Notes: a model not told the origin generated them from the sequence alone. 44,032 bases of DNA from Candidatus Zhuqueibacterota bacterium (GCA_016929055.1 JAFGJN010000206.1:1-44032), one strand, 5' to 3'; counted from the stretch's first letter, positions 4,031-28,347 are shown. Numbers and translations are program-made.

Positions 4031-5200
4031 ATGAATAGAAAATCCACTCTTTTTTCTCTCTGCATCGGCGCCATTCTGGTGATGCTTTTTTCATCGGAGG
4101 CACTGGCGATTCCGGCTCTGGCGAGGCGATACAAGATCTCGTGCAACACCTGCCATGCGCCGTTTCCCAAGCTCAAACCTTACGGCGAAGAGGTGGCCGG
4201 CAACGGTTTCATCATTCCCGAGGAAGAAAAAGAACGCGACTATGTGACGGCCGGCGACGACTTGCTGTGGCTGAACCGGGATTTTCCGATTTCGGCTCGT
4301 TTTGATGCCTACGGCGTCTATGATGACACCGAAGGCGGAAACAGCACCGACCTGCAGACCCCCTGGGGGGTCAAGCTCCTGTCCGGTGGTGCGCTCTATA
4401 AAAACATCGGTTATTATTTCTATTTCTACATGTCCGAACGCGGCGAGGTTGCGGGCATCGAAGACGCTTATATCCATTTCGACAATGTCTTAAACACGCC
4501 GCTGGACGTCATGCTCGGCCAATTCCAGACCTCGGATCCGCTGATGAAACGCGAGCTGCGCCTGACTTTTGAAGATTATCAGATCTACAAGACGCGAATC
4601 GGTCTATCGAGCACCAACCTCGCCTACGACCGCGGAGTGATGCTGGTTTATGGGATCGAACAAACCGGAACCGATATCGTCGGTTTGCTGGTCAACGGCA
4701 ACGGCATACCCGATGGCGGTTTCGATCAGGACAAATACAAAAATTATGGATTCCGCCTCAGTCAGGCGGTCAACGAAATTCTGACTGTGGGTGGTTTCTA
4801 TTATCGAGGCAAGGATGATCTCGGCCCCCAAATTGACGAAATCACTTACTATGGACCCGATTTCAACCTGGCGTTCGGCAAACTCGAGGTTACCGGACAA
4901 TACCTGCTGCGCAAGGATGACATCAAATGGAGCCACACCCCGCAATCTTCTGTTCGAACCATTGAAACCACGGGAATTGTTCTGGAAGCGATTTTCGCAC
5001 CCCAATTTGACCGTTCGCGCTGGTATCTGACCGCGCTCTATAACCAGGTCGATTCGGATTATAGCTGGGTCAATTATGAAACCGCCACCCTCAGTTATAC
5101 CTATCTGATGGCGCGCAATCTTCGTTTTATCGGCGAGTTTACCCGCGATCTCGAGCACGAAAACAACCGCCTGGTCGTCGGGTTTACCAGCGGGTTTTAG
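4031..5200 (+). CDS. Monohaem cytochrome c fused to a predicted outer-membrane beta-barrel
   Basis: A 389-aa protein with a signal peptide (residues 1-26, ending near ALA), one haem-c motif (Cys38, Cys41, His42 in SCNTCH) and then a long region of alternating polar/aromatic strands. The last residue is Phe in GFTSGF, the classic outer-membrane beta-barrel C-terminal signal. Segments such as YYFYFYM and YLTALYNQV look like transmembrane strands. I infer an outer-membrane pore with a haem at its periplasmic entrance. ATG 4031 follows GGAGG at 4021. An in-frame extension upstream overlaps the cytochrome gene and lacks a signal peptide, so I reject it. The gene starts 29 bp after the pentaheme cytochrome and is very likely co-transcribed, so the two may form an electron conduit. 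The function is not established. Confidence 0.75.
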   Translation: MNRKSTLFSLCIGAILVMLFSSEALAIPALARRYKISCNTCHAPFPKLKPYGEEVAGNGFIIPEEEKERDYVTAGDDLLWLNRDFPISARFDAYGVYDDTEGGNSTDLQTPWGVKLLSGGALYKNIGYYFYFYMSERGEVAGIEDAYIHFDNVLNTPLDVMLGQFQTSDPLMKRELRLTFEDYQIYKTRIGLSSTNLAYDRGVMLVYGIEQTGTDIVGLLVNGNGIPDGGFDQDKYKNYGFRLSQAVNEILTVGGFYYRGKDDLGPQIDEITYYGPDFNLAFGKLEVTGQYLLRKDDIKWSHTPQSSVRTIETTGIVLEAIFAPQFDRSRWYLTALYNQVDSDYSWVNYETATLSYTYLMARNLRFIGEFTRDLEHENNRLVVGFTSGF

Positions 5201-5220
5201 ACGGCCACTCCGTCCAGTAT

Positions 5221-5270
5221 TTGACTAAAAAAGGCCCGGCGATCGATTCGCCGGGCTTTTTTTTAGTCAA
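5221..5270. terminator. Bidirectional intrinsic terminator between convergent genes
   Basis: Long inverted repeat with arms of about 22 bp: TTGACTAAAAAAGG...GGCGA on the left and its complement ending TTTTTTTTAGTCAA on the right, with one bulge. The GC core GCCCGGCGA/TCGCCGGGC is flanked by an A-run on one side and a T-run on the other, so it can terminate transcripts in both directions. It sits between the 3' ends of the cytochrome-barrel gene (+) and the TrmH gene (-). Confidence 0.92.
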
Positions 5271-5289
5271 TCCAGATCAACCGCTAAAG

Positions 5290-6075
5290 CTACTCGCCCG
5301 CCTCTCCCCTCTCTTCGATCTGCTGTTTCACGACATCGATCCGCATCAATCGCTGGCGCATGGCTTCGGCCATGACAATGCTCGCCGAATGGGTCAGCGA
5401 CAGGGAGCCGATATCGGAAACCATGGGAATCTGGATAAACTGATCGCACTGTGAACGCACCGCTGCCGAAAGTCCGCGTTTCTCGCCCCCAAGGCAGAGC
5501 AGGATGCCGCGGGTAAGATCGACGTCATAGATGCGCCGCTTGACATTGGCGATGCAGCCATAGACGGCAACGTCATAATTGCGCATCTTGGGCAGAATGA
5601 TTTGGGGTTGATCAAAAACCACCAGCGGCATGCGTTCAAAGGCGCCGGACGAGGAACGCGACACCGCCGCCTCGTCGAAATCCCACAGATGTTTTTTCAG
5701 CAGGATCGCCTGAACGCCAAGCGCCTCGGCGCTGCGCATGACAAAACCGAGATTCTGGACATCGTCAACGCCTTCGAGCAGCAGCAAAAAGGGCGGCCGC
5801 GATGAGCGTTTGAGAAAGTCGAAAAACCTCTCGATTTCCCATGGTGGACGCGGTGAACCCAGCGCGAGGATGCCGCCGTGGGTCTTGCCGCCAGCCATGG
5901 CATCGATCTCTTCGCGGCTGACCGTCTTGACCGGCACCTGCAACTCTTTAGCCAGCGCAAAAAGCTCGGGCGCGTTTTCGTGGTGCAGTCCGTGGCGCAC
6001 AACGATGAGCGACAATTTTCGTGCACGCGCCTCGAGCGCCGCCTGAACGCAGATTTTTCCTTCCAGAGTGATCAT
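5290..6075 (-). CDS. TrmH/SpoU-family RNA 2'-O-methyltransferase
   Basis: SPOUT-fold methyltransferase of 261 aa, probably acting on the ribose of a nucleotide in 23S rRNA or tRNA with SAM as donor. The N-terminal 75 residues resemble the substrate-binding (L30e-like) domain, with GKICVQAALEA in place of the usual G-x-x-x-V-x-x-AL. The catalytic domain carries motif 1 (GVDDVQNLGFVMRSAEALG), motif 2 (LCLGGEKRGLS) and motif 3 (IPMVSDIGSLSLTHSASIVMAE region), which form the SAM-binding knot. RlmB is the closest well-known member, but motif 3 diverges slightly, so the target is uncertain. It ends at the shared terminator at 5221-5270. Confidence 0.88.
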   Translation of the reverse strand: MITLEGKICVQAALEARARKLSLIVVRHGLHHENAPELFALAKELQVPVKTVSREEIDAMAGGKTHGGILALGSPRPPWEIERFFDFLKRSSRPPFLLLLEGVDDVQNLGFVMRSAEALGVQAILLKKHLWDFDEAAVSRSSSGAFERMPLVVFDQPQIILPKMRNYDVAVYGCIANVKRRIYDVDLTRGILLCLGGEKRGLSAAVRSQCDQFIQIPMVSDIGSLSLTHSASIVMAEAMRQRLMRIDVVKQQIEERGEAGE

Positions 6076-14940: not shown

Positions 14941-16350
14941 CTAGTGCGTGCTTGTTGAACGGCATCCAGAAAAGAGTCGATCGTCTGGATTTGCTGGTTC
15001 CCTATTCAGAGTTTTGATCCAGGCCCAGAATTCTCGACAAAATTCATAGCCATAGCGGTTGCGCCACAGCGGAAAAATCGAGTTGTTGCTCAACAAAAGA
15101 TCCGAGGTTGGATCCCATTCCCGGTTCTTTACTGCCTGGTTCCACGACCGGGTTCCGGGGATGGGAGAAAAGGAAGCGGCATCGACTCGAGCCCCGAGCT
15201 CACGGACCAAAAGACAGCTCTCCCGCACTTCTTGCGGCGGTTGCCCTGGCAGACCGAGGAGGACATAAACGCCGATTTGCCGGCGTTCATAGCCGGCGCG
15301 TTCCAAAACATTCAGAGCATTCTCAAGATCGGCTGGAGCGACCTTGTGCGAGATATCGTCCTGCCGCGCAGGCGAAGCGGATTCAAAGCTCAGGCGAATA
15401 GTCTTCACTCCAGCGGCAAAAAAAAGGTCGGCCAACTCTTTATCGATTTGTCGGGGATGGATGCCATTGGGCAAATGCAGGCAAAGCCGGCTTTCGCACT
15501 CAATGAGGAGACGCAGAATGGGTTTGATCGAGCTCTCGGGCTGGACAAGAAGAGCATCATCATAAAAAGCCGCATGCTGAATTCCGGCGGTTTCGGACCA
15601 GTGAAACAGTTCATCAACCACCCGTTGGGGCGCTCTGCGGCGAAATTCGGGCACCAGCAGATGGGTGGCGCAAAAACTGCAAGCAAAAGGGCATCCACGC
15701 GAGGTTTCGATGGCTACAGCATCGAGATTCGAATAGAGATCATAGGCCGGAAAGGGCAACGCCGCAAAATCGGGCACCGAAACGAGGCTTACGCCAAACA
15801 GTCGATGCAAGAGCTGTGGCAATTGTCTCTCTCCTTCGCCTTGTATCAGGATATCCGGGCGAACGGTCGTGCGCGCATGTTCGGGGCAAAGTGTGGCATA
15901 GATTCCACCGAGAACCAGGGGTGTATGAGGAAAGTGACGGCGCAAGATTTGCGCCATTTCGGAAACCGCTGGATACCAGTAGGTCATCATCGAGGTGAGC
16001 AGAATCGCATCGGGTTGGGGAAGTCGCTGCAGATAAGATTCGACCAACTCGAGGGGCAGGCCATAGCGGCAAAAATGGCGTGGAATCGGGCGCAAACACT
16101 GGGGTTTGGCGATGATTTGGCGAATGAATTTGCCACTGCCATCGCTCCGTTCGTGCGGACGATCGGTTTCCCAGTCATCGAGCAGAGGATGGTGGCGATC
16201 GAGGCAATCGACAAGTTCGACCGCATATCCGCATTGCCTCAACAGGGCAGCCAGGCGCAGCAGACCCAGTGGTTTAGCCCACAGATCATAAGCAGCGAAA
16301 TCGACAATCCAAGGATTGACCAAAAGCAGCCGATACGATTTGCGATTCAT
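14941..16350 (-). CDS. B12-binding-domain radical SAM protein
   Basis: Radical SAM enzyme of 469 aa. The N-terminal part (about 1-190) has the shape of a cobalamin-binding domain: LLVNPW at the start, GLLRLAALLRQCGYAVELVD, LVLGGIYAT and GEGERQL. The iron-sulfur cluster motif is Cys220, Cys224 and Cys227 in CPFACSFC, preceded by IETSRG. Later, RLSFESAS and VYVLLGLPGQ are typical radical SAM barrel strands. The substrate is unknown; the family includes methylases, cyclases and hopanoid/lipid-modifying enzymes. Its start overlaps the stop of the response-regulator phosphatase by 4 bp (ATGA), so it appears to be tied to the signalling operon. Confidence 0.9.
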   Translation of the reverse strand: MNRKSYRLLLVNPWIVDFAAYDLWAKPLGLLRLAALLRQCGYAVELVDCLDRHHPLLDDWETDRPHERSDGSGKFIRQIIAKPQCLRPIPRHFCRYGLPLELVESYLQRLPQPDAILLTSMMTYWYPAVSEMAQILRRHFPHTPLVLGGIYATLCPEHARTTVRPDILIQGEGERQLPQLLHRLFGVSLVSVPDFAALPFPAYDLYSNLDAVAIETSRGCPFACSFCATHLLVPEFRRRAPQRVVDELFHWSETAGIQHAAFYDDALLVQPESSIKPILRLLIECESRLCLHLPNGIHPRQIDKELADLFFAAGVKTIRLSFESASPARQDDISHKVAPADLENALNVLERAGYERRQIGVYVLLGLPGQPPQEVRESCLLVRELGARVDAASFSPIPGTRSWNQAVKNREWDPTSDLLLSNNSIFPLWRNRYGYEFCREFWAWIKTLNREPANPDDRLFSGCRSTSTH

Positions 16351-17513
16351 TTGAGATCCAACTCGGCGGCGAGCAAGAGCACATCGTCGCGCAGTTTTTC
16401 ACCGCTGTAAGATTTAACCGTTTCCACCATGCGATCGGCAAAATCCTCCAGCGGCAGGTTTGAAAAACGCAGCAGATTCTTTTTCAGGCCTGCGATCCCC
16501 AACGGTTTGTGTTGACCGTTCTCCGCTTCGATTGCGCCGTCGGTATAGATAAGCAATCGATCGCCGGAATGGATATCCACCTCCTCCTGTCGCGGGTTGG
16601 CCAGCGATGCATCGAACCCAATGATCATATTAAGCGAAGCCAATTCCTGCAGGTGACCGTTCTTTTTTCGCCACAGCAGAGCTGGCGGATGGGCGCTGCC
16701 GGCATACGACATCTTTTGCCGTGTTGTATCGATACAGACAGTCAAAGCGGTCAGAAAGAGCCCGGTTTGAGAAAAGGACTCGAAAAAAAAACGATTGAGC
16801 TTTTGCAGAATTTCCACCGGCTGCAGGTTCTCTCGCATCAGCTTCCGTCCTTCGCTGCACACCCGATTGACCAGCAGCGCCGCCGAGACGCCGTGTCCGG
16901 TAACATCTATCACCGTGAAATAAACCCGACCGTCGCTATTCGAGGCGATATCGGCAAAATCGCCGCCGAGACCAATCATCGGCCGGTATCGCACCGTCGC
17001 CATCACGCCATGAGCGGAAAATGATTCCGGCACCAATGAAGCTTGCACGCGCTTGGCCAAGGCCAAATCCCGGCTCAACATACGGTAGTACTGATCGAGG
17101 CGTGTCTGCTGCTCCTCGAGCTGCTGCCCGAGTTCGCGTCTTTCCAAAGCCTTGCGCACTTTAAAAAGCAGAGACTCGGAATGCACGGGTTTCGATAGAT
17201 AGTCGAAAGCCCCTTTTTTTATGGCATCAACAGCACTGCGAACGCTGCCAAAGCCGGTAAAAATCAACACCTGTGTATGCTTGTTCGCCTTTTTTGCCGC
17301 TTCCAGAACCTCGAGTCCTCCGACCTCATCCATGTGCAGGTCTGAAATCACCAAATCAAAGGGCTGTTCGGCGAGCAGACGCAAAGCGGTTTCGCCGCTT
17401 TCCGCTTCAGCAATCCTGTAGGATTCGCGCTGAAGGATCTGGAACAGAAATCGACGGACATTGTCGTCATCATCGACAACAAGGATTCGGGGGGCGGACT
17501 TAATTGATGACAT
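16347..17513 (-). CDS. Response regulator with SpoIIE-type PP2C phosphatase output (RsbU/HsbR-like)
   Basis: Two-domain signalling protein of 388 aa. The receiver domain (about 8-125) has the acidic pocket VVDDDD, phospho-acceptor Asp58 in LVISDLH and the conserved Lys in DYLSKP. A coiled linker leads to a PP2C/SpoIIE domain (about 165-385) with the metal-binding acids intact: GGDFAD, DVTGHG, YTDGAIEA and RDDVLLL. The design fits phosphatases that act on a phosphorylated STAS protein when a histidine kinase signals; HsbR of Pseudomonas has the same layout. No cognate histidine kinase lies in the window. It is 96 bp downstream of the double-GAF phosphatase and overlaps the radical SAM gene. 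Confidence 0.93.
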   Translation of the reverse strand: MSSIKSAPRILVVDDDDNVRRFLFQILQRESYRIAEAESGETALRLLAEQPFDLVISDLHMDEVGGLEVLEAAKKANKHTQVLIFTGFGSVRSAVDAIKKGAFDYLSKPVHSESLLFKVRKALERRELGQQLEEQQTRLDQYYRMLSRDLALAKRVQASLVPESFSAHGVMATVRYRPMIGLGGDFADIASNSDGRVYFTVIDVTGHGVSAALLVNRVCSEGRKLMRENLQPVEILQKLNRFFFESFSQTGLFLTALTVCIDTTRQKMSYAGSAHPPALLWRKKNGHLQELASLNMIIGFDASLANPRQEEVDIHSGDRLLIYTDGAIEAENGQHKPLGIAGLKKNLLRFSNLPLEDFADRMVETVKSYSGEKLRDDVLLLAAELDLK

Positions 17514-17609
17514 ACGTTTCTGGATCCGACTAAAGGTTAAGGAACTCGCACGGGGGGGGTAAAAAAATCCTGCAGACCGATTAAAGCAGAGGATGAAAAA
17601 GTGAACGGG

Positions 17610-19358
17610 CTAAGCGATCCGCACCCCAAGCACTGTCAAGTCATCCGGCAGTATTCCATCTTGGGCAAATTCGCGTACGCAGGTGAGCAGACGATCGACA
17701 ATTTCCTGCACAGAACAATCTCGATGGCTGAGCAAAAAGTTCTGCACGCCTGTTTCCTCAAATTCCTCGCCGTTTTGATTGCGCGCTTCGGTGACGCCGT
17801 CGGTAAACATAAGAATTAAATCACCTTTTTGCAATGGAATTGTTCCCGATCGATAGACGACATCGGGCATCATGCCGATGATGAGGCCGCCTTCCTCGAG
17901 CGGCAGAAGCGTTCCGTCGGATCGCATCAGATAGGGGGGGTTGTGGCCGGCATTGACAAAGGTCGCTTGCATGCGTCGCGGATCGATTTCGATAAAAAAC
18001 AAGGTGATAAATTTATCATAGCTGGTGCGGGAATAGATGAGATTGTTGATGCGGGCGATCATCGCCGCCCAATCGTTATAACCGGTGATCAAACTGTGGA
18101 TGCTGGCCTGGATATTGGACATGAGAAGAGAAGCCCCCACCCCCTTACCCGAGACATCGGCGATAACACAGGCGACCCTTGCGTTTTCCAGAGGAATCGA
18201 GTCGTAATAGTCGCCGCCGACCTGGCTCGACGGAATATTGAGTCCGGCAATCTGGACGCCTGGGATTTGGGGGTTATCGCGTGGCAACAGGCGTTGCTGA
18301 ATATCGCGCGCCAGAGCAAGTTCATCCTCGATTTTTTGTTTATCCAACGCTTCCTGAAACAGACGCGCATTCTCCAGAGATAGCATGGCGCGATTGGCCA
18401 AGTTGAAGAGAAAATCGATTTCGTCGGAATCGAACGGAGACCGGCGGCTCTTGGGGCCGATCAACAAAACACCTCGGGCTTGCGATTGAATCCGCATGGG
18501 AATAGCCAGAGCGATGCCCAGAGCTTGCAAACGGGTGATCTCCTCCGCTTCTGCGTCTTGGGCGACAAGCGGTTGCTCCAATTCCGAAAGATATTCTTGT
18601 GCAAGTCGAGCGATCTGAACTGCATCGGCTGATGGTATTCCGCGTTGTGCCATGAGCTGCAATCGCCCCTGACTTTTGAGTAAAACCATGCAACGCTGCA
18701 CCGCCATCTCGCCCATCACCGCATAGACCAGCATGGCAACGATCTTTTCTTCATCCAAAGTAGAGTTTAATTCGCGGCCGATCTCGAAAAGGGTTCCAAG
18801 TTCCTGCACTTTTTTATCCAATTGACGGTTGACCGTTTCCAGCTCTTTGAAGATCAGCGCGTTTTGGATTGCAGTGGCAGCGATATTCGAGAGCGAATCG
18901 AGATAGGCGATCTCGTCGGTGCTGAACTTTTGGTCTCCGACGCGAGCCCCCAGGCCGATGATACCGGACATATGCCCGTTGCTGTTGATGGGAAGAATCA
19001 GTGTGATGCGATGGGTTTCCAGAAAAGAGATGAATTCGCTGAATTCGTCTGTCAGATCAGTCGTCCGGACAGGTTGATCGAGTTGAGCGGGCAGTCGCAG
19101 GCGATGGTGCAGCACGTTGCTTGGCAAGCCCTTGGCGATCACGACTTTGAAATCATCGTCTTGCTGGCGAATCATGACCAAACCGCGTGTGATCATCATT
19201 CGCCCCATGGGTGTAAGCAGAAGGTTGTTGAGAATGGGGTTAAGCTGCAGCGAGGAGTTGAGAATTTGACTCAATTCAAACAGGGATTGCAGCTCAACGA
19301 GGCGCTGATCGAGCTGCCGTTCGATGCCAGAAAGTGGAGAATGGATCCGTCTGCTCAT
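17610..19358 (-). CDS. Double-GAF SpoIIE-type protein phosphatase
   Basis: Cytoplasmic phosphatase of 582 aa with two GAF sensor domains (about 25-165 and 185-335), a helical linker of the kind that transmits signals (DKQKIEDELALARDIQQRLLP) and a C-terminal PP2C domain. The catalytic acids are present in GGDYYDSI, DVSGKGVGASL, FTDGVTEARN and PDDLTVLG. The likely substrate is the phosphoserine of the STAS protein encoded two genes upstream. The GAF ligands cannot be read from the sequence. ATG 19358 shares one base with the TGA of the kinase gene; a GTG codon lies directly before it. This intimate arrangement suggests co-translation. Confidence 0.93.
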   Translation of the reverse strand: MSRRIHSPLSGIERQLDQRLVELQSLFELSQILNSSLQLNPILNNLLLTPMGRMMITRGLVMIRQQDDDFKVVIAKGLPSNVLHHRLRLPAQLDQPVRTTDLTDEFSEFISFLETHRITLILPINSNGHMSGIIGLGARVGDQKFSTDEIAYLDSLSNIAATAIQNALIFKELETVNRQLDKKVQELGTLFEIGRELNSTLDEEKIVAMLVYAVMGEMAVQRCMVLLKSQGRLQLMAQRGIPSADAVQIARLAQEYLSELEQPLVAQDAEAEEITRLQALGIALAIPMRIQSQARGVLLIGPKSRRSPFDSDEIDFLFNLANRAMLSLENARLFQEALDKQKIEDELALARDIQQRLLPRDNPQIPGVQIAGLNIPSSQVGGDYYDSIPLENARVACVIADVSGKGVGASLLMSNIQASIHSLITGYNDWAAMIARINNLIYSRTSYDKFITLFFIEIDPRRMQATFVNAGHNPPYLMRSDGTLLPLEEGGLIIGMMPDVVYRSGTIPLQKGDLILMFTDGVTEARNQNGEEFEETGVQNFLLSHRDCSVQEIVDRLLTCVREFAQDGILPDDLTVLGVRIA

Positions 19359-19828
19359 CACTTCCGGTCTCTTTTTTGCACCAGCTGTGAATCGTCCTTA
19401 TCGATAAAATACTTGACCATTCGAACTTGATTGCTGAGGCCCGGCCGAATTTTATAATCGACTTCATCCATCAGGGTGCGCATAAGATAAATCCCTAGCC
19501 CGCCGACGCGCAATTCGGCCAGGTATTCTTTCATATCAGGTATTTTGATTTCATCGGGATGGAATCCCTTGCCATGGTCCGTGACCAAGACTGTAAATTT
19601 TTGATAATCGATCTGAATCGCCACATCCAGCGCTTTTTGGTCCTTGGGATCATACGCGTGTTTGATCACATTGGTGCAAGCCTCATCTGTGGCCAGTTCG
19701 ATTTTGCCAATATCATCTTCTGAAAAGCCAACCTTGTTCGCCACAAGGCCGACAAAAGCGCGGATGAGCTCTAAATTTTCCGTTTGGCTCGGAATGCGCA
19801 GCTTGTATTCTGTTTTGCTTTTCACCAT
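19358..19828 (-). CDS. RsbW/SpoIIAB-like serine kinase (anti-sigma factor type)
   Basis: GHKL ATPase-fold protein of 156 aa. The N-box is ELATDEACTNVIKHAY (Glu49, Asn53), the G1 box VTDHGKGF (Asp84, Gly86, Gly88) and the G2 box VGGLGIYLMRTL. In known systems such a kinase binds and inhibits a sigma factor or other target and phosphorylates its STAS antagonist. Here the STAS gene lies 7 bp upstream. The target is not in the window, so it could hold a sigma factor or another output protein. The arrangement STAS, kinase, phosphatase matches a partner-switching module. Confidence 0.94.
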   Translation of the reverse strand: MVKSKTEYKLRIPSQTENLELIRAFVGLVANKVGFSEDDIGKIELATDEACTNVIKHAYDPKDQKALDVAIQIDYQKFTVLVTDHGKGFHPDEIKIPDMKEYLAELRVGGLGIYLMRTLMDEVDYKIRPGLSNQVRMVKYFIDKDDSQLVQKRDRK

Positions 19829-19835
19829 CGATTTC

Positions 19836-20219
19836 TCACTTTTGGTTATCCTGACTGCCCTTGTTCAGCGATGTTTGGAAAAATTTTTCCCGAGCGGTTT
19901 CCAAATCATCGACGATATCATAAAGAGTCGGGAATCCGAGCAAATCGAAAACGCGATAAATCTTGGTGTTCATACGGCACATTTTGATATCGCCACCGTT
20001 GGTTCGGATTTGTTCGATAAATCCCATAAACACCCCCAAACCGGCGCTGCTGATATATCCGAGATCGGCAAAATCGACCAGGATCTGAAACCGCCCCTCA
20101 TCCAGCAGTTTTTGGATTTCCCTTTCCAAGATCGGGGCGGTGTGTGCGTCGAGAAACCCGGCAACACGAAGCGAGCTCAATTGGTCTTCATCACTTCGTT
20201 TGACCTGGAAATTGCTCAT
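19836..20219 (-). CDS. STAS-domain anti-anti-sigma factor (RsbV/SpoIIAA-like)
   Basis: Small cytoplasmic STAS protein of 127 aa. The phospho-acceptor region is YISSAGLGVF, with Ser57/Ser58 at the position phosphorylated in SpoIIAA and RsbV. The unphosphorylated form would bind the RsbW-like kinase encoded next door and free its target. A C-terminal tail (about residues 110-127) is polar. Four phosphatases in the same cluster are candidate activators. Its start overlaps the previous gene's stop by 4 bp and is served by GGAGG 8 nt upstream. Confidence 0.95.
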   Translation of the reverse strand: MSNFQVKRSDEDQLSSLRVAGFLDAHTAPILEREIQKLLDEGRFQILVDFADLGYISSAGLGVFMGFIEQIRTNGGDIKMCRMNTKIYRVFDLLGFPTLYDIVDDLETAREKFFQTSLNKGSQDNQK

Positions 20220-22345
20220 CTATCAACCTCCGTTTCGATAGAGATATCTGAATTGGAATCCGGAAATTCAACCTCACGAGACCTTGGGGTCTCGATCGGG
20301 GTGAAATGCTCCGGCCAGTCGAATGTGATGACCACCAGGGTCAGGTCATCATGTGCTTTTGCATCACCGACAAATTGGTCGATTGCATTGAGCAGTCCCT
20401 GTCGCACCTGTTTTGCCGGCAACCCTTTAAGCGACGCCAGAGTTTCAATGAGACGTTGTTCTCCATACTCTTCGCCCAGAGTGTTGCGAATCTCTGTTGC
20501 GCCATCGGTATAGAGGAGCAAGGTCATGCCGGGATGCAATTCGATTTTTTCCTCGTTCAAAGCTGCATCGAAAACCGGACCGCTGTCGAGTCCGATGCCG
20601 AGCCCGTTGGGCTGCAAAGCCACAATCTCATCCTGATCCTTGTCGGCAAGTAAAACGGGACAATGCCCTGCACGACAAAAAGTAAAACACTTTTCCTGCA
20701 GGTCAATCATCCCATAAATTAACGTAATAAAATGATTGGATTCAATACTTTTATAGATGATACGATTGGCCTCGCGAACCACCCGCAAAGGATTGCACAG
20801 TGTCCGCGCCAGGGCATCTATTACTCCTTTGATTTCAGCCATATAAAACGCAGCCGACGCGCCTTTGCCCGACACATCGCCAACGACAACGCCCCATTTG
20901 CCTCCATGCTCGAGGTCGATAAAATCGTAATAATCCCCCCCCACTTCGTTGGCGGTCTTGCAGATTGCCTCAACCTGCAATCCGGGCAAATCCGGCAAAC
21001 ACTTGGGCAAGAGGTTCATTTGTGCATCATGGGCCAACCGCAATTCATGCTCAAAGCGCTCTTTGAGCAGAGACGCTTTTATCAGGCGGGTGTTTTCCAC
21101 GGCAATAACCGCCTGTGCAGCAAAGGCGTTCAACAATTCGACGTCCTCTTGCTCGAAACCGAATGTCCCGCTTTTGCCTGCATAGAGATAGCCGATGCTT
21201 TCCTGGCCCGAGACCATCGGCACGATCAACAGCGATCCCAGATTCGCTTTCCAGCGAGCGAAAAAACGCAACCGGCTATTGCGGGGCATCTGATTCTCGA
21301 CAAGCGCTTTTTTTTGGGTCAAATCCTCCATCTGCTCGATGCGCGGAAGATATTTTTGGCGCAGACGTTTTTCCTTGTCGGTCAGATTGCACCAGGCCAC
21401 CAGATCGAGGCTTTGCGATCCTTGATCGACCAACTCCAACCAGCTGTATTCGGCTTCAGTGACTTTTGCCGCCAATTTGACGATCTGACTGACCAATTTT
21501 TGTAGATCGAATTCAGAACTCATGGTACTGCTGAGCGCATACAATGACTCCATTTCGCGAATTTTACGATCGAACAAGTGTGCGGTGGGCAAATGTGCGG
21601 TTACAACGAGCAAAGCGATGGTCAGATAGAGTGCAAAAAAAAGAACCGACAACGCCAAAAAGGCACCGAGAAACGGAATCGCAATCGTTACGGCAGAGAA
21701 ATCAAATAAACGCGCTACCAAATGCCAGGCAAAGGGCAACAAAAAAAGACCGCCCCAAAAAGAAGCCAACTTTTGCCGGCGATTCAGATAGTGAATCCAG
21801 CTGACGCGAGAACCATTGATGCCAAACAAAACGAGAAGAATCAACCATCCCAGGCCGGCCATCACCCCATTCTCGGTAAAGGGAAGAGGCAGGTTTGCCA
21901 CCGGCTGTCCAGCGGATGTTCGCAAAAAAGCGATTAAAAGCATAAAAAAGATCATCCAGCCAAAATTTCTTTCCGTAGATGGTTTGCGTTTGATATAGAT
22001 CAGATGCCGAAAAAGTGAAAGTAAAATCAGGACAGCCGTCGTGCTATAGACGGCCCACAGCCAAACGAGAACGGAACTCTCGCCGGAAGAAGGTTCAACA
22101 AAATGGGAAGCAAGATCGGTAAAAAGAATGATAAAAAAGATCTGACGGATCGTCTGGATATTGCTTTGAAAAGCCAGCCACTTTTGAATCGGAATGAGAA
22201 AAAAGGAGAGCCATATAGCCAGGGCAATCATCAGGTTACCGCTAATGGAAAGCACCGTTGGAACAAATCGGCTGCCGACGATTGTCACAAGGAAAAGCAG
22301 CAGAGCGATAAAAATAGGTGTTTTTTTGACACGGTTTTGCATCAT
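20216..22345 (-). CDS. Polytopic membrane protein with GAF and SpoIIE-type phosphatase domains
   Basis: A 709-aa sensor phosphatase. The N-terminal 265 residues hold about seven or eight hydrophobic helices with short loops and no catalytic motif, probably a membrane sensor. A GAF domain follows (about 270-425), then a linker with the RFEHELRLAHDAQMNLLP segment, then PP2C. Metal-site residues are GGDYYDFI, DVSGKGASAAFYM, YTDGATEIRN and HDDLTLVV, followed by a polar tail of about 30 residues. It likely dephosphorylates the STAS protein, whose gene overlaps its stop codon. Two adjacent ATG codons at 22345 and 22342 could serve as starts. Confidence 0.92.
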   Translation of the reverse strand: MMQNRVKKTPIFIALLLFLVTIVGSRFVPTVLSISGNLMIALAIWLSFFLIPIQKWLAFQSNIQTIRQIFFIILFTDLASHFVEPSSGESSVLVWLWAVYSTTAVLILLSLFRHLIYIKRKPSTERNFGWMIFFMLLIAFLRTSAGQPVANLPLPFTENGVMAGLGWLILLVLFGINGSRVSWIHYLNRRQKLASFWGGLFLLPFAWHLVARLFDFSAVTIAIPFLGAFLALSVLFFALYLTIALLVVTAHLPTAHLFDRKIREMESLYALSSTMSSEFDLQKLVSQIVKLAAKVTEAEYSWLELVDQGSQSLDLVAWCNLTDKEKRLRQKYLPRIEQMEDLTQKKALVENQMPRNSRLRFFARWKANLGSLLIVPMVSGQESIGYLYAGKSGTFGFEQEDVELLNAFAAQAVIAVENTRLIKASLLKERFEHELRLAHDAQMNLLPKCLPDLPGLQVEAICKTANEVGGDYYDFIDLEHGGKWGVVVGDVSGKGASAAFYMAEIKGVIDALARTLCNPLRVVREANRIIYKSIESNHFITLIYGMIDLQEKCFTFCRAGHCPVLLADKDQDEIVALQPNGLGIGLDSGPVFDAALNEEKIELHPGMTLLLYTDGATEIRNTLGEEYGEQRLIETLASLKGLPAKQVRQGLLNAIDQFVGDAKAHDDLTLVVITFDWPEHFTPIETPRSREVEFPDSNSDISIETEVDR

Positions 22346-22365
22346 TGGAAAATTTCCAGCCAGAG

Positions 22366-24813
22366 CTAGAGAATCTTGACAACCAGCAGGGTCATATCGT
22401 CGTGCTGCAGGGTATTGCCAACGAATTCCTGCACGCGGTTTTCGATCTCGTTCAAAATTGTCTGGGCACTTCGATCCCCCACCGCGACAAGAATATCGCG
22501 CAGACGATCTTCGCCAAATTCTTCCTGCACGGCGTTCAAAGCTTCACTAAAGCCGTCGGTATAAAGTAGATAGACATCACCGCTCTCCAGCGGCAGGGTC
22601 ATTTCTTCGATCTGTCGGTCGAACAATGGGCCGCCTTCGAGTCCGAGCGCGATACCGCTGGGACAAAACATCTCGGTGCCGCCGCTGCGGTTGCGTTGGG
22701 CGATAATCGGATTGTGACCAGCACGGGCAAAAGTCAGTGTTTTGGCATCCAGATCAAAGACGGCATAAATCATGCTGATAAAGTGGCCGCGTTCGACATT
22801 TTCATAAAACAGCTTGTTTATTTCGCTCAGAACCGAACGGGGACTGGTCATGGTTCGGGTGCAGGAGCGCAGAAAACCTTTGGTCAAAGTCATATAAAAA
22901 GCAGCAGAAATGCCTTTCCCCGACACATCGCCTATCGCCACTCCGATACGTGAAGCGCCCATCGGAATGAAATCATAATAGTCGCCACCGACATCGAGTG
23001 CGGGAATACATTTGCCCGCCATCTGCAGATTGGCCATGCGCGGCAGGATGCGCGGCAAAAAACTCAACTGGACCTTTCGAGCGATTTCCAGCTCGCGTTG
23101 CAAACGCTGTCTTTCAAGAAGCTTGGTCACGTAGGCCGGTGTAAAACGCAGCAGTTGGCGCGAGGTAATCAACCGTTGGTACCCGACAAGAGCGAGAAAG
23201 CCCACACCTCCGGTCAGCAGCAAAACAGATAGAGCCGAGAACCGGAACGACGGATGGGCGAGATAATAGTATTGAATGATGTCGAAAAACAAGAAATAGC
23301 TCAGGTTGGCAAAAAGTGCGGTTAACAAATCGAAACGCCAGAAAACCAGTGCATAAATTCCGCCAGAGATCAAACCGATTACAAATCGAACCAGCACCGG
23401 CTGGGAAGGAAAGTCGGTGTTGAGACCAAGCCCCCAGAATATGCCAACCAGGACGACAACCCATATTGTGCGGCCGAAATAGCGCGCAATCAGAGTCGTC
23501 AGAAACGCTATAAAGATTACCTGCTGCCAAATAGAAACATTCAGCGCATGAATAACGGACTGAAAAAACCGGCTTTGAGAATTTATTTTCTGCAATCCGT
23601 AATTCCAGCGCGAGAGATCGAGCATATCGGCAGCCATCGTCACACGCAGAAGCAAGGCGGTCAGTCCAAGTATGAGAGCGCCATAGGCAAAACCGCGCAA
23701 AACCGCCAGAGCAAATGATCGGTGGCGCACCTGTCCGCGACGCATGGCGTCCAGCGTCAGCAATTTATCGTCCCAATAATGACGCACGACCGCATCAGAG
23801 CAAGCCAGAGCCGCAAGAGCGATAAAACCGATAAAGATAGCCGAAAATCCGACGGAGATGAATTTTTCCCAAAAAACGATACCGCCCACCTCGACCTTTA
23901 AAAATCCGCTCAGGAGGGTGATCACGGCCACAAGGACGGCAACGGGGGCGACGTATCTAAAACTCATACCATCTGCACGCAAATAGCGGACGAAAAAGAA
24001 CAGATAAAGGATCACGCTGCCCAAAATAACCAGGAGAACCGGAACGGTTTCCATAATGAGTTGAAACCGCGAAGGTGTGCTCGACGGAACATCGTAATTT
24101 ATTGCAATGCGGCCAATTCGATCGCCGAGCACGGCGATCTCGAGCAAGACAGGCAATCCAGCAACATTCTCTTCCGCTTTGTATTCGACGATCGTGTCGA
24201 CGCGATAGTCATGAGCCGTTTGGCGCAGGCGGAAGAATTGAAAGAAACCGACCCTATCGGCAAAGCGGACAGCCAAAAGTGAATCAGCGAGTTGTCGAGC
24301 CCGTTGTTGGTCGAGATTGACAGTGAGACTGTCATCGCGTCTGGAAAGATCCAGACCGATTTCGCGCCCGTGCGTATCAAAAGTCAATGATATCGATTGA
24401 ACTCCGACCGGCAGAGTGTCATGCTCCTCTTTACCTTTCGGGGCAGACCAAACTGTGGACCAGGTATAGATCGGCAGAACATCAAGTATCAAGCTGTCGG
24501 CTGCCTTGCTGGAAAATTCTTTTTCCACATGGCGCAATAGATCCTGATTGACCCCCAGTTCGCACTGGAGATCATTGGTCGAGACCCGATAGCCCATTTG
24601 CTGCAGGCTTTTTTGCGCTTTTTGACGAATCTCAACCGCATCGGATTTCAAACGAACAGCACCGAGCGGAAAAATTCGAGGATAACAGACGTAAAAAATG
24701 AGGATCCCGACCAATCCGGCCAGAGCTATCCAGTAATCTGATTTTTCGAGCCTTTGCTGCATTGATGACGCATCCATTTCTTGGGTTGTCGATACCGGCG
24801 CATCGATACACAT
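22366..24813 (-). CDS. Membrane SpoIIE-type phosphatase on a CPBP/CAAX-protease-like fold
   Basis: An 815-aa sensor phosphatase. A first helix (about 27-45) is followed by a roughly 210-residue region, likely periplasmic (46-255), then about eight more helices (256-545), a helical linker and PP2C (about 580-815). Catalytic acids are present in VGGDYYDFI, DVSGKGISAAF, YTDGFSEALN and HDDMTLLVV. The helices at 420-510 resemble a CPBP/CAAX protease, but the catalytic positions are changed: the Glu-Glu-x-x-x-Arg motif reads Gln430-Gln431...Ile435, and FxxxH reads Phe459...Gly463. I infer a dead protease fold reused as a membrane sensor. ATG codons at 24813, 24777 and 24762 are all possible starts; none has a strong ribosome-binding site. 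It begins the phosphatase train, 20 bp before the next gene. Confidence 0.88.
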   Translation of the reverse strand: MCIDAPVSTTQEMDASSMQQRLEKSDYWIALAGLVGILIFYVCYPRIFPLGAVRLKSDAVEIRQKAQKSLQQMGYRVSTNDLQCELGVNQDLLRHVEKEFSSKAADSLILDVLPIYTWSTVWSAPKGKEEHDTLPVGVQSISLTFDTHGREIGLDLSRRDDSLTVNLDQQRARQLADSLLAVRFADRVGFFQFFRLRQTAHDYRVDTIVEYKAEENVAGLPVLLEIAVLGDRIGRIAINYDVPSSTPSRFQLIMETVPVLLVILGSVILYLFFFVRYLRADGMSFRYVAPVAVLVAVITLLSGFLKVEVGGIVFWEKFISVGFSAIFIGFIALAALACSDAVVRHYWDDKLLTLDAMRRGQVRHRSFALAVLRGFAYGALILGLTALLLRVTMAADMLDLSRWNYGLQKINSQSRFFQSVIHALNVSIWQQVIFIAFLTTLIARYFGRTIWVVVLVGIFWGLGLNTDFPSQPVLVRFVIGLISGGIYALVFWRFDLLTALFANLSYFLFFDIIQYYYLAHPSFRFSALSVLLLTGGVGFLALVGYQRLITSRQLLRFTPAYVTKLLERQRLQRELEIARKVQLSFLPRILPRMANLQMAGKCIPALDVGGDYYDFIPMGASRIGVAIGDVSGKGISAAFYMTLTKGFLRSCTRTMTSPRSVLSEINKLFYENVERGHFISMIYAVFDLDAKTLTFARAGHNPIIAQRNRSGGTEMFCPSGIALGLEGGPLFDRQIEEMTLPLESGDVYLLYTDGFSEALNAVQEEFGEDRLRDILVAVGDRSAQTILNEIENRVQEFVGNTLQHDDMTLLVVKIL

Positions 24814-24864: not shown

Positions 24865-25446
24865 TTAAATGCTTTCGGTTGACCGGTCTGAAAATACTCG
24901 AGCGCTGAAAACAAAGATCCGAGTTTCAGGATCTTTCCAATCGTCCCTATCGAGTCCCGCTTTCAGACAGGTGTGTTGCAAAAAATGGGTTCGATCCCAC
25001 TGGTGTTCAACCGCCACCTGCGGTAAAAGCAAACCGCTTTGCATTCGGCGTTCGATAAAAAGGCCATGTCGCCCGATTTGAATCTCGTCAATCGAAACGA
25101 TTTTTTTCAAGGGTGTGAGCACCGATATTTCAATTTCCAGGGCGTCCAATTCGTCGACGCGGATAGTTGGAAAGCGGAAATCTCGTGAAGCAGCGGCTTG
25201 GGCCATCTCCACAACCGTCTCCCACAGAGGCCGGACGGCCTTGATATAGCCAATACAGCCGCGCAATTCGTCGTGCACATAAAGCGAGACAAAAGCTCCG
25301 CTAGGCCGTAGCAGCCTGTTGTTGTCGCCGGAATAGGCTGGCGGCGGCTCTTTTAGCAGCTGTTTTTCGATGCCGAGCCGGGCGAGCAGTAATAGCTCGG
25401 TTTGCTCGGCCGTGGTCAGTTCGTCGGCTTGATTGTTTTCTGCCAC
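24865..25446 (-). CDS. amrA: AMMECR1-domain protein (AmmeMemoRadiSam protein A)
   Basis: A 193-aa cytoplasmic AMMECR1-domain protein. Family marks are the LRGCIG motif with its conserved Cys, FRFPTI, and ISVLTPLKKI, with DRTHFLQHTCLKAGLDRDDW near the C-terminus. The biochemical role of the family is not settled; its gene typically sits with Memo and a radical SAM gene, as here. It starts with GTG (AGGTG upstream) and has no signal peptide or membrane segment. A second AMMECR1 domain is fused to Memo in the next gene upstream, so the cell carries two versions with presumably different locations. Confidence 0.92.
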   Translation of the reverse strand: MAENNQADELTTAEQTELLLLARLGIEKQLLKEPPPAYSGDNNRLLRPSGAFVSLYVHDELRGCIGYIKAVRPLWETVVEMAQAAASRDFRFPTIRVDELDALEIEISVLTPLKKIVSIDEIQIGRHGLFIERRMQSGLLLPQVAVEHQWDRTHFLQHTCLKAGLDRDDWKDPETRIFVFSARVFSDRSTESI

Positions 25447-25539
25447 AATTGCACCTGTTGTTTGGACTCGAATCGGCCTGAATGCCGGGATTTTTATATC
25501 GCATGCCGGGTAGCCGATTACCCGACACCTCTTTGCGAC

Positions 25540-27042
25540 TCAAGGATTGGAATCGAGCAAATGCTCATCAAAAACCTGAGTCCGATAGACCCAAAACTCG
25601 GCGTCTTTTTCCCAGGCATCGGGTGCCAGCCCCGCCTTGAGGCAGAGATGGCGCAATTCTTCTTCCTTGGTTTTCCAGCCCGCTTCGATCGGCACTTGAG
25701 GCAAAAAAGTTGCGCTCTTTCCATCCTTCACCAGAATAATGCCATGCACGCCCATTTCGAATTCATCGATCGAAGCGATGGGATAGACATTGGTCAAATA
25801 AACCGAGATTTCAATATCGATCTCGGGTAATTCATGCCGTTGCAGAGGCCGAAAACGCGGATCGAAAAAAGCCGCAGAAACCGCTCGGTCGGCCACCATC
25901 TGCACCAACGGCCTATCCGATTCGTGGGAACCGATGCAGCCATGCAACTGTCCGTTTCGCTCGAGGGTGACAAAAACACCGCGTTTTTCCTGAAGCATCG
26001 GCAATGCACTGCTGAATTGTGGTGTTTTGCCCTCTTGCAGGTAAGCTGCGATCGCCTGACGGGCGATCCGCAAGAGTTCGCGCTGCTCTTCCGGACCGAG
26101 TTCGGGGTGAACAACTACCCGGGGCATCTGTTTATAGACCACACCGCTTCCATAACCGACCACATAACCGCCGCGTTCGCCGGTGACGTCATTGGAATTG
26201 GTGCGTGCAACAATCTTTACCCGGTCGGCGCCCAGCTCGCGACAGGCGATCTGCATGATCACAGCCGCCGCCCCGCCGCATGCCTGACAGCGTTCATCGC
26301 AGAGATCTTGCCACAATTTTTCCGGCTCGAAACGCTGTAACGCCTTCAGAGTGCGATCATCAAAGAGCCGACCTTCCTCATAGGAATAGCCATGGTACAA
26401 ATCGGTGCTGGCGACCACCACCGCGCGTTTGCCCTGCAAGACCCGAGCCAGATCCTGTCCGATTTGCGCGTTCATTCCGGCATCGACCCGACCGATCACA
26501 ATTGGAAGAATGCGGGCCTGTGGGAAAAGCCGCTGAACAAAGGGTAGCTGCACCTCCAGAGCATGTTCTCCACCATGACCGGCATGGGAAAACTCGACGG
26601 CTCCGCAGCGATCGACGAATTTTTTCGCCGCTTTATCGTCGATGGCAATCTCGCCCAGCGGGGTGCGATAGGCACGACCGGGATAAACGCTGGCACCGGT
26701 CAGCGGGTCACGATGGCTGGGGGCAAGAATGACAACGAGATCGATACCTTCGTCTTTGAGCATAGCCCAGGCAGCCGAAGCAACCGAAGCCGAATAGGCA
26801 TATCCGGCATGCGGCACAAACAAACCGAAAATTTTTCCTGGCGCTTCAGCCGCCGTGGAATCAAGCAACCGATCGACCAACAACCGCAGTTGTTCGGGAT
26901 CATCCGGATAAAACTGTCCCGCTACCGCAGGCCGCCTTACTTCATCTTGCTCTTTTGCATCTCCCAGCTTCGGGGTTCGAAGGATCGAAAAAAGCAAAAC
27001 CATGACCAAAACCGGCGCCACAAACCAAAGTCGTTTGCTCAT
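25540..27042 (-). CDS. amrB: Membrane-anchored Memo-AMMECR1 fusion (AmmeMemoRadiSam proteins B and A)
   Basis: A 500-aa protein with an N-terminal hydrophobic helix (about 4-22) and then a Memo domain (about 38-305). Memo's metal-binding-type residues are seen as His in VPHAGYAYSA, His in APSHRD, His in STDLYHGYS and Cys in QACGGAAAV. An AMMECR1 domain (about 320-490) follows, with the conserved Cys in LHGCIG, FDPRFRPL and LCLKAGLAPDAW. The anchor implies the soluble part faces the periplasm or is tethered to the membrane. GTG 27045 and ATG 27042 are adjacent; AAAGGAAA lies upstream. Fusion of the two domains is known in the family. It is 31 bp downstream of the radical SAM gene. Confidence 0.92.
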   Translation of the reverse strand: MSKRLWFVAPVLVMVLLFSILRTPKLGDAKEQDEVRRPAVAGQFYPDDPEQLRLLVDRLLDSTAAEAPGKIFGLFVPHAGYAYSASVASAAWAMLKDEGIDLVVILAPSHRDPLTGASVYPGRAYRTPLGEIAIDDKAAKKFVDRCGAVEFSHAGHGGEHALEVQLPFVQRLFPQARILPIVIGRVDAGMNAQIGQDLARVLQGKRAVVVASTDLYHGYSYEEGRLFDDRTLKALQRFEPEKLWQDLCDERCQACGGAAAVIMQIACRELGADRVKIVARTNSNDVTGERGGYVVGYGSGVVYKQMPRVVVHPELGPEEQRELLRIARQAIAAYLQEGKTPQFSSALPMLQEKRGVFVTLERNGQLHGCIGSHESDRPLVQMVADRAVSAAFFDPRFRPLQRHELPEIDIEISVYLTNVYPIASIDEFEMGVHGIILVKDGKSATFLPQVPIEAGWKTKEEELRHLCLKAGLAPDAWEKDAEFWVYRTQVFDEHLLDSNP

Positions 27043-27076
27043 CACGCGATTTCCTTTCTTTTACCGGAATGGCCGA

Positions 27077-28222
27077 CTAATGCCAGACCCCGGGGATCGA
27101 TGTAGCGCAAGCGTCACATTTTCCGTCTTTGAGATGGTTTTCCAAAACAATAAATCCCCTGCGCCGAATCAGCACTTTGTTGCACGAGGGACAATAGGTA
27201 TGTTCCCCCGCATCCCCAGGAATGTTGCCGGTATAGCAAAAATGCAAACCGCAGTCCAGTCCGATCTCTCTTGCCTGACGCAGAGAAGCGATCGGCGTAG
27301 AGGGAAGATTCTTGAGCCGATACTGGGGATGAAAGCGGGTAAAATGAACAGGCGTATTCGCTCCCAGTTCGGCATGAACCCATTTGCACATTTTTTTCAG
27401 CTCGTCCGGGCTGTCATTCTGTCCGGGGATAACCAGGTAGACAATTTCCGTCCAGATCCCTTCCGCTTTGAGTATAACCAGCGTATCCAGTACCGGCTGC
27501 AATTCACCGTCTACCAATTCATAATAAAAACGATTGGAAAATGCCTTGAGATCGATCTTGACGGCATCCAGCACGCGGCACAGGTCGCGCATGGGTTCGG
27601 CATTGATATAGCCATTGGTAATCATGACATTGCGGACACTCAGCTCCGCAGCCGCGGTAGCGGTGTCATACAGATATTCGGCGCTCACCACCGGTTCGGA
27701 ATAGGTATAAGCGATGCAGTCGCTCTGTTTTGAATGGGCCAGTTCGGCGGCCTTTTCCGGGGGTAGGTCATAACTTTTAACATCTTCCGGCCGTGCCTGC
27801 GATATCTCCCAGTTCTGGCAAAATAAACACCGCACGTTACATCCGACTGTGGCCATTGAAAAAGCCGAGCCACCAGGCAAAAAATGAAATAGTGGCTTTT
27901 TTTCGATAGGATCGATGTGCATTGTGCACGGATAGCCATAGACCAGACTCACCAGCCGGCCATGGCGATTTTCGCGGGTCCGACAAAATCCGCGCTCTCC
28001 TTTTTCGATCGCGCATTGTCGCGGACATAAAAGGCAGCGCACAACACCTTCTGCGATGGGACGATAATAACGCGCTTCTTTGTAAAAGCGAACGGCAGCG
28101 TCCGAGGTCTCGACAATAGTGCCGAGACCGCTCAGAGCCAAAGCGCCGCTCGCTCCCAAAGATCTCAGAAACGTCCGGCGGTTCCATGGATATGGGGGGA
28201 AATCCAAGTTAATCGGCTCCAT
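27077..28222 (-). CDS. amrS: AmmeMemoRadiSam system radical SAM enzyme with a twin-arginine-like N-terminus
   Basis: Radical SAM protein of 381 aa. The cluster motif is Cys128, Cys132 and Cys135 in CNVRCLFC. An N-terminal Cys group (63, 66, 70, 80) and a C-terminal pair of CxxC motifs (CPSC and CDAC) probably bind zinc or a further cluster. The start chosen, ATG 28222, gives NRRTFLRS (Arg15-Arg16) followed by a hydrophobic stretch (GASGALALSGLG), which resembles a Tat signal. The longer ORF to 28342 adds 40 residues overlapping a terminator, so I reject it. The ribosome-binding site is weak. It leads the AmmeMemoRadiSam cluster. The reaction is unknown. Confidence 0.9.
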   Translation of the reverse strand: MEPINLDFPPYPWNRRTFLRSLGASGALALSGLGTIVETSDAAVRFYKEARYYRPIAEGVVRCLLCPRQCAIEKGERGFCRTRENRHGRLVSLVYGYPCTMHIDPIEKKPLFHFLPGGSAFSMATVGCNVRCLFCQNWEISQARPEDVKSYDLPPEKAAELAHSKQSDCIAYTYSEPVVSAEYLYDTATAAAELSVRNVMITNGYINAEPMRDLCRVLDAVKIDLKAFSNRFYYELVDGELQPVLDTLVILKAEGIWTEIVYLVIPGQNDSPDELKKMCKWVHAELGANTPVHFTRFHPQYRLKNLPSTPIASLRQAREIGLDCGLHFCYTGNIPGDAGEHTYCPSCNKVLIRRRGFIVLENHLKDGKCDACATSIPGVWH

Positions 28223-28298
28223 TTTTATGAGTCCGACAGGTTGAATGATTGAGAATACCGACTTTTTATTTAACACCCTAAAGCGGTGCAATTGTTTC

Positions 28299-28347
28299 AA
28301 AAAAAAACCGCGCTCCACCGTTAGACAAAGCAGCCGGAGCACGGTTT
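28299..28347 (-). terminator. Intrinsic terminator of the PAS-GAF-GAF gene
   Basis: On the minus strand AAACCGTGCTCC, a 19-nt loop and GGAGCGCGGTTT form a 12-bp stem with one wobble or mismatch. A T-run of about nine bases follows (the A-run at 28299-28307). It lies 22 bp past the 3' end of the PAS-GAF-GAF gene and separates it from the AmmeMemoRadiSam cluster. Confidence 0.85.

Follow-up and report, generated by a model that had tools for sequence, protein, structure and literature searches.

Six adjoining open reading frames (ORFs) on the minus strand of a 44,032-nucleotide stretch of DNA from Candidatus Zhuqueibacterota bacterium (GCA_016929055.1 JAFGJN010000206.1:1-44032; the whole stretch is called the window here) form a block at 16347-24813 that encodes four SpoIIE-type PP2C phosphatases, one STAS protein, and one RsbW-like serine kinase. 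The block is a real conserved unit, with its linkage kept throughout the phylum. On balance it is probably a multi-input partner switch, in which a STAS-kinase pair is fed by several sensor phosphatases; both the catalysis and the sharing of the pair are what we infer. ORF calling and Pfam bore out the gene content given in the initial annotation, and Pfam matches and sequence features did the same for its different sensors (response regulator, double GAF, membrane-GAF, and membrane with external domain).

In order of transcription, the genes encode an 815-amino-acid (aa) membrane PP2C (22366-24813), a 709-aa membrane-GAF PP2C (20216-22345), the STAS protein (127 aa, 19836-20219), the kinase (156 aa, 19358-19828), a 583-aa double-GAF PP2C (17610-19361), and a 388-aa response-regulator PP2C (16347-17513). 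The SpoIIE family PF07228 was matched in all four phosphatase genes (E = 1.5e-44, 3.1e-47, 4.5e-50, and 1.5e-41). Two inner joints had been described as overlapping, and in both the overlap is 4 bases (20216-20219 and 19358-19361); at another inner joint, 96 bases separate the response-regulator phosphatase gene from the gene before it. The window is contig C282 of an assembly of 4.05 Mb that is 90.5% complete and in 366 contigs. The whole genome has 10 SpoIIE genes, six of them outside the cluster, and the probability of 4 of the 10 falling by chance within six adjacent genes is about 7e-6, assuming 3400 genes in the genome.

A constant core with a varying complement of phosphatases

Relatives were compared in three sets, namely 60 genomes through the class, 54 named loci (779 kb), and 29 loci with sufficient flanking sequence to either side. 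All 60 relatives have an ortholog of the kinase, with best matches at 51-79% identity. Most of the named kinase relatives bear the label candidate division KSB1, a phylum of the FCB group for which the name Zhuqueibacterota has now been proposed (PMC11683472), and the more distant ones are labelled Calditrichota. Four loci (L067, L095, L108, and L113) carry other phylum labels and may be mislabelled bins or transfers. The survey came out for one unit rather than separate, unlinked systems, with STAS, kinase, and phosphatase genes adjoining across the 54 loci. The usual layout in these places the STAS-kinase pair between the membrane-GAF phosphatase, whose orthologs occur in most loci including those of Calditrichota, and the double-GAF phosphatase, which is the most constant phosphatase neighbor of the kinase. 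The response-regulator phosphatase comes next in much of the phylum.

The number of phosphatases varies among the 29 fully covered loci, with three in 13, four in 6, five in 3, two in 3, one in 2, and none in 2, such that three to five surround the STAS-kinase pair in 22 of them. The 815-aa phosphatase is an optional cluster member: G001, a genome of the same genus, yielded no match to it, and its matches in 27 of 40 genomes include some weaker ones on contigs other than that of the kinase. Several order-level relatives (L074 to L080) have a fifth phosphatase after the radical SAM gene, with a HAMP-GAF-PP2C architecture in L074. The four phosphatases first reported therefore hold for the window and not as a stable trait, since relatives have one to five, and the feature is better described as a constant core with a variable phosphatase set. 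Tandem kinase genes were also seen within the cluster at two loci (L095:9974-10878 and L099:1080-2000).

The STAS protein and kinase retain the residues expected of a partner switch

The STAS protein is of the anti-sigma-factor-antagonist type (PF01740, E = 7e-14; TIGR00377 above cut-off), and consists of a STAS domain only, with a conserved phospho-acceptor Ser/Thr. An alignment of 29 orthologs has 27 invariant columns, and the motif SSAGLGVFM is present in all 29. Its first two residues, Ser57 and Ser58 (codons at 20046-20051), form the predicted phospho-acceptor site, which we assign from family knowledge by analogy with SpoIIAA S58 and RsbV S56. The kinase matches HATPase_c_2 (PF13581, E = 1e-30) and has the N-box and G-boxes of GHKL serine kinases. 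Within the N-box (codons 48-53, DEACTN, 19670-19687), Glu49 and Asn53 are kept in 21 of 21 aligned orthologs, and we take the former to be catalytic and the latter to bind Mg, as in the family. The closest solved structure in a PDB search was RsbW (6m36, 98.9 bits), followed by SpoIIAB (42 bits). The invariant Arg23 of the kinase aligns with SpoIIAB Arg20, which contacts both SpoIIAA and sigma-F.

Each phosphatase joins a sensor module to a PP2C domain

In all four phosphatases a sensor module is followed by a helix leading into the PP2C domain, and nearly every ortholog of each type, the response-regulator type included, retains the metal-binding Asp positions. A sensor domain that precedes a PP2C domain is proposed to act by ordering such a helical linker, which dimerizes and turns the phosphatase on (PMC12143880). 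The 815-aa phosphatase has one transmembrane helix, a large external domain (aa ~48-245), a polytopic membrane region (aa ~249-545), and a C-terminal SpoIIE domain (aa 621-814). Its external domain matched a DUF4901/YcdB-like Pfam family in 3 of 21 orthologs and not in the window protein, and may be of that kind. The membrane region likewise matched an Rce1/CPBP-protease-like family in 3 of 21 orthologs and not in the window protein, which suggests that it may derive from an intramembrane protease of this type, degenerate here, in what would be an unusual PP2C fusion. An AlphaFold2 model of the protein (mean predicted local distance difference test score 86.3) matched the phosphatase domains of RssB, SiaA, and SpoIIE in the PDB; among the Foldseek matches listed there were only phosphatase domains and none to the membrane part. 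The 709-aa phosphatase consists of a hydrophobic N-terminal membrane region, one GAF domain, and the SpoIIE domain, and the 583-aa phosphatase has two GAF stretches and SpoIIE with no membrane part. The 388-aa phosphatase has a response-regulator receiver and a very divergent SpoIIE domain.

No SigB-type sigma factor was found with the module

No sigma gene was found in the window or in the 54 related loci with twelve sigma queries from the same genome, which as a control find each other within the ECF (extracytoplasmic function) set and within the RpoD-like set. The lack of a sigma factor in 44 kb that was first pointed out thus extends to 54 loci and, for the SigB/SigF type, to 60 genomes: a SigB/F/G-type sigma above the TIGR02980 cut-off was found in 0 of 60 genomes (of which 39 have a completeness of 90% or more and a contamination of 5% or less) compared to 1 of 14 controls. 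The genome itself has no group 3 sigma, and a SigB-type sigma elsewhere in it is excluded as far as these data go. It encodes two RpoD-like sigma factors and eleven other sigma-70 region 2 matches of ECF-like length, counted as matches and not sorted into orthologs. The first RpoD-like sigma (C87) is present in nearly all relatives at 82-99% identity, and owing to this near-universal presence and high conservation was taken as the primary sigma. The second (C308) occurs in many relatives with a patchy distribution. It was rejected as an obligatory client since searches did not recover it from eight genomes of 96-98% completeness that do have the kinase (G006, G009, G017, G025, G036, G038, G042, and G045).

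A conserved neighbor was also considered as the client and rejected, since clustering of neighbors over the 54 loci gave metabolic genes, a propeller-like lipoprotein, and a response-regulator-GGDEF protein of Calditrichota that is not conserved at full length in the class. With no SigB/F-type sigma and a patchy second RpoD-like sigma, an obligatory client would be the primary sigma, an ECF sigma, or a non-sigma target. The universal primary sigma appears to be the single most likely of these, as a tentative assignment, and a non-sigma target or an ECF sigma, taken jointly, is as likely or more so. A precedent comes from Chlamydia, in which the primary sigma has been proposed as the client of RsbW (PMC4552016).

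A probable multi-input partner switch and its alternatives

In the RsbU-RsbV-RsbW scheme, the kinase phosphorylates the STAS protein and holds its client until a phosphatase frees the STAS protein, which then takes the kinase off the client (PMC8256260), and two phosphatases converging on RsbV have been described (PMC12143880). We infer all catalytic steps of the switch proposed here from family membership. At rest, the kinase would phosphorylate the STAS protein at Ser57/58 and stay free to hold the client, as the family and the intact residues suggest. Inputs could come from the cytoplasm (redox state or a ligand of the GAF domains), from the membrane, or from the envelope by way of the external domain, and a signal on any one sensor phosphatase would activate its PP2C domain through the helical linker. 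The active phosphatase would then strip the phosphate, leaving the STAS protein to bind the kinase and release the client. In its most far-reaching form, which we consider speculative, one kinase-STAS pair would sum three to five phosphatases and directly set the availability of the primary sigma, with no alternative sigma, as a phylum-wide growth throttle.

Relationships among the phosphatases bear on whether they share a substrate. Three of them are 34-40% identical to each other, and the 815- and 709-aa types form a group that also takes in the fifth type and a phosphatase from outside the cluster (Shimodaira-Hasegawa-like approximate likelihood ratio test support 99); judged by their sequences, the 815- and 709-aa types are of common origin. 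The cluster STAS protein is likely common to the three related phosphatases, and the response-regulator phosphatase may have another substrate. The idea of one switch that sums cytoplasmic, membrane, and envelope signals, which the initial annotation put forward, is favored by the conserved unit and the three similar phosphatases, and is weakened by the divergence of the fourth and by the number of STAS genes in the genome.

Several points weigh against the multi-input switch. The response-regulator phosphatase belongs to a separately conserved clade with a branch length of 3.68 changes per column, and has its own conserved motifs (DVTGHG, SAHPA, and SQN-IIGF). The flaps of the four phosphatase types, a region that helps set substrate choice in SpoIIE and RsbU (PMC11418112), fall into three different patterns. 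One phosphatase from outside the cluster (L141) resembles the cluster phosphatases as closely as these resemble one another. The genome has 10 STAS genes, five strong RsbW-like kinases among its HATPase_c_2 matches, and the six further PP2C genes, and cross-talk or other pairings are therefore possible. Against the NCBI RsbW model PRK04069, the kinase scored 107.3 bits, under the 145-bit cut-off. As to the client, the case for the primary sigma is built on a phylogenetic profile and a single precedent, and the ECF count is of unsorted matches. Shared docking loops were dropped as proof of a common substrate, since three flap patterns give support neither way.

The alternative that best survives, though we hold it to be improbable, is a mixed signaling island in which one or two of the phosphatases, likeliest that with the response-regulator domain, have their substrates among the other STAS proteins encoded in the genome. 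The long branch and separate motifs of that phosphatase and the 96-base gap before its gene fit such an arrangement, as do the ten STAS genes, several of which have no adjoining kinase or phosphatase in the stretch read. However, no STAS gene other than the one described here was seen in the cluster, and the phosphatases stay beside the STAS-kinase pair across the phylum.

Somewhat less probable is an output through a diguanylate cyclase (the enzyme that makes cyclic-di-GMP) or another enzyme, bound by the STAS protein in one phosphorylation state, such that no sigma factor is freed. HsbA-HsbD and SiaC-SiaD of Pseudomonas are precedents for this, with HsbD and SiaD as the enzymes, and a sigma-less RsbW-like kinase is linked to a transporter in the same phylum. 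At L103 and L110, both in Calditrichota, the place of the response-regulator phosphatase after the module is taken by a gene for a response-regulator-GGDEF diguanylate cyclase; a Pfam run on these two loci put it after the module and an extra GAF-PP2C gene. A similar response-regulator gene is at that place in L109 and L112. In the class of the window, however, the full-length response-regulator-GGDEF protein is not conserved, and only the GGDEF domain finds matches. No diguanylate cyclase is encoded in the cluster of the window.

Still more doubtful is a role for the kinase as the anti-sigma factor of an ECF sigma encoded elsewhere. The eleven ECF-like matches beyond the two RpoD-like genes would supply candidates, but no ECF sigma is near the module in any of the 54 loci, and the known clients of the RsbW/SpoIIAB class are mostly group 3 sigma factors, a further point against such a client. 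An ordinary SigB system with its sigma gene in the missing part of this incomplete, fragmented assembly is very improbable and already largely refuted by the lack of such a sigma above the cut-off in all 60 genomes.

Neighboring genes and related modules

Downstream, the last phosphatase gene overlaps by 4 bases, the third such overlap, with a gene for a B12-binding radical SAM protein (14941-16350, minus strand), which is at the same place in order-level relatives and is outside the proposed multi-input switch. AMMECR1, Memo-AMMECR1, and radical SAM genes lie directly upstream on the same strand (24865-28342), also outside the switch, and order-level relatives keep them beside the cluster. 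In 14 loci, distant ones included (L070, L071, L074, L089-L092, L094, L100, L105, L109, L112, L117, and L118), a gene upstream of those for the membrane phosphatases encodes a lipoprotein-like protein of ~426 aa with propeller-like repeats (L070:3698-4975); it is not at this position in the window. Neither of the two copies scanned had a Pfam match, and the protein is a possible envelope partner of a membrane phosphatase.

Two other modules were seen in the same genome. One is a fused partner-switching module, with RsbW-like kinase and SpoIIE domains in a single frame and a STAS gene nearby (G000:C247, L137:5686-9498 and 4867-5526), and many relatives have kinase matches in frames of similar length. 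In the other, an RsbW-like kinase gene is directly followed by genes for an MlaB-like STAS protein, an MlaE permease, and an MlaF ATPase (G000:C260, locus L143:1965-4336). Among 30 loci from this genome and relatives (L146-L175), 28 have the order kinase-MlaB-MlaE; for L160 and L164, the short stretch covered yielded the kinase alone. In E. coli, whether and how MlaB is phosphorylated is a stated open question (PMC7367683). A dedicated Mla-linked kinase would make MlaB phosphorylation testable.

Relation to known partner switches

The cluster resembles the SigB network of Bacillus subtilis (RsbU, RsbP, RsbV, and RsbW) in having more than one sensor phosphatase on one STAS protein and the same domain families, and RsbW is the closest relative of the kinase with a solved structure. 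It differs in having three to five phosphatases instead of two, in having no RsbR/S/T stressosome genes in the cluster, and in that the SigB gene belongs to the system in B. subtilis, with no counterpart found in any of the 60 genomes here. The Rsb system of Chlamydia trachomatis (RsbU, RsbV1/V2, and RsbW on sigma-66) also has an RsbW-like kinase without a SigB-type sigma, but with one main phosphatase and two STAS proteins, whereas a cluster here has a single STAS protein and as many as five phosphatases. HsbR-HsbA-HsbD and SiaABCD of Pseudomonas likewise combine a PP2C domain, a kinase, and a STAS-type protein, and the response-regulator-PP2C architecture of the 388-aa phosphatase resembles RssB/HsbR. 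Their output is a diguanylate cyclase, which here accompanies the module only in Calditrichota relatives, and their phosphatases per kinase are far fewer. The IcfG cluster of Synechocystis also groups PP2C, STAS, and kinase genes and is not known to have a neighboring sigma gene, but has one phosphatase and two STAS proteins. Relative to these four systems, the many-phosphatase arrangement is unusual.

All parts of the cluster come from known families. What stands out is the grouping of three to five sensor phosphatases round one STAS-kinase pair, phylum-wide and with no SigB/SigF-type sigma found in the 60 genomes. The cluster would represent a conserved partner switch with an output other than the textbook one and a small, defined set of candidate clients, and the series of clusters with one to five phosphatases offers a natural setting in which to study how inputs are gained and lost on a fixed switch.

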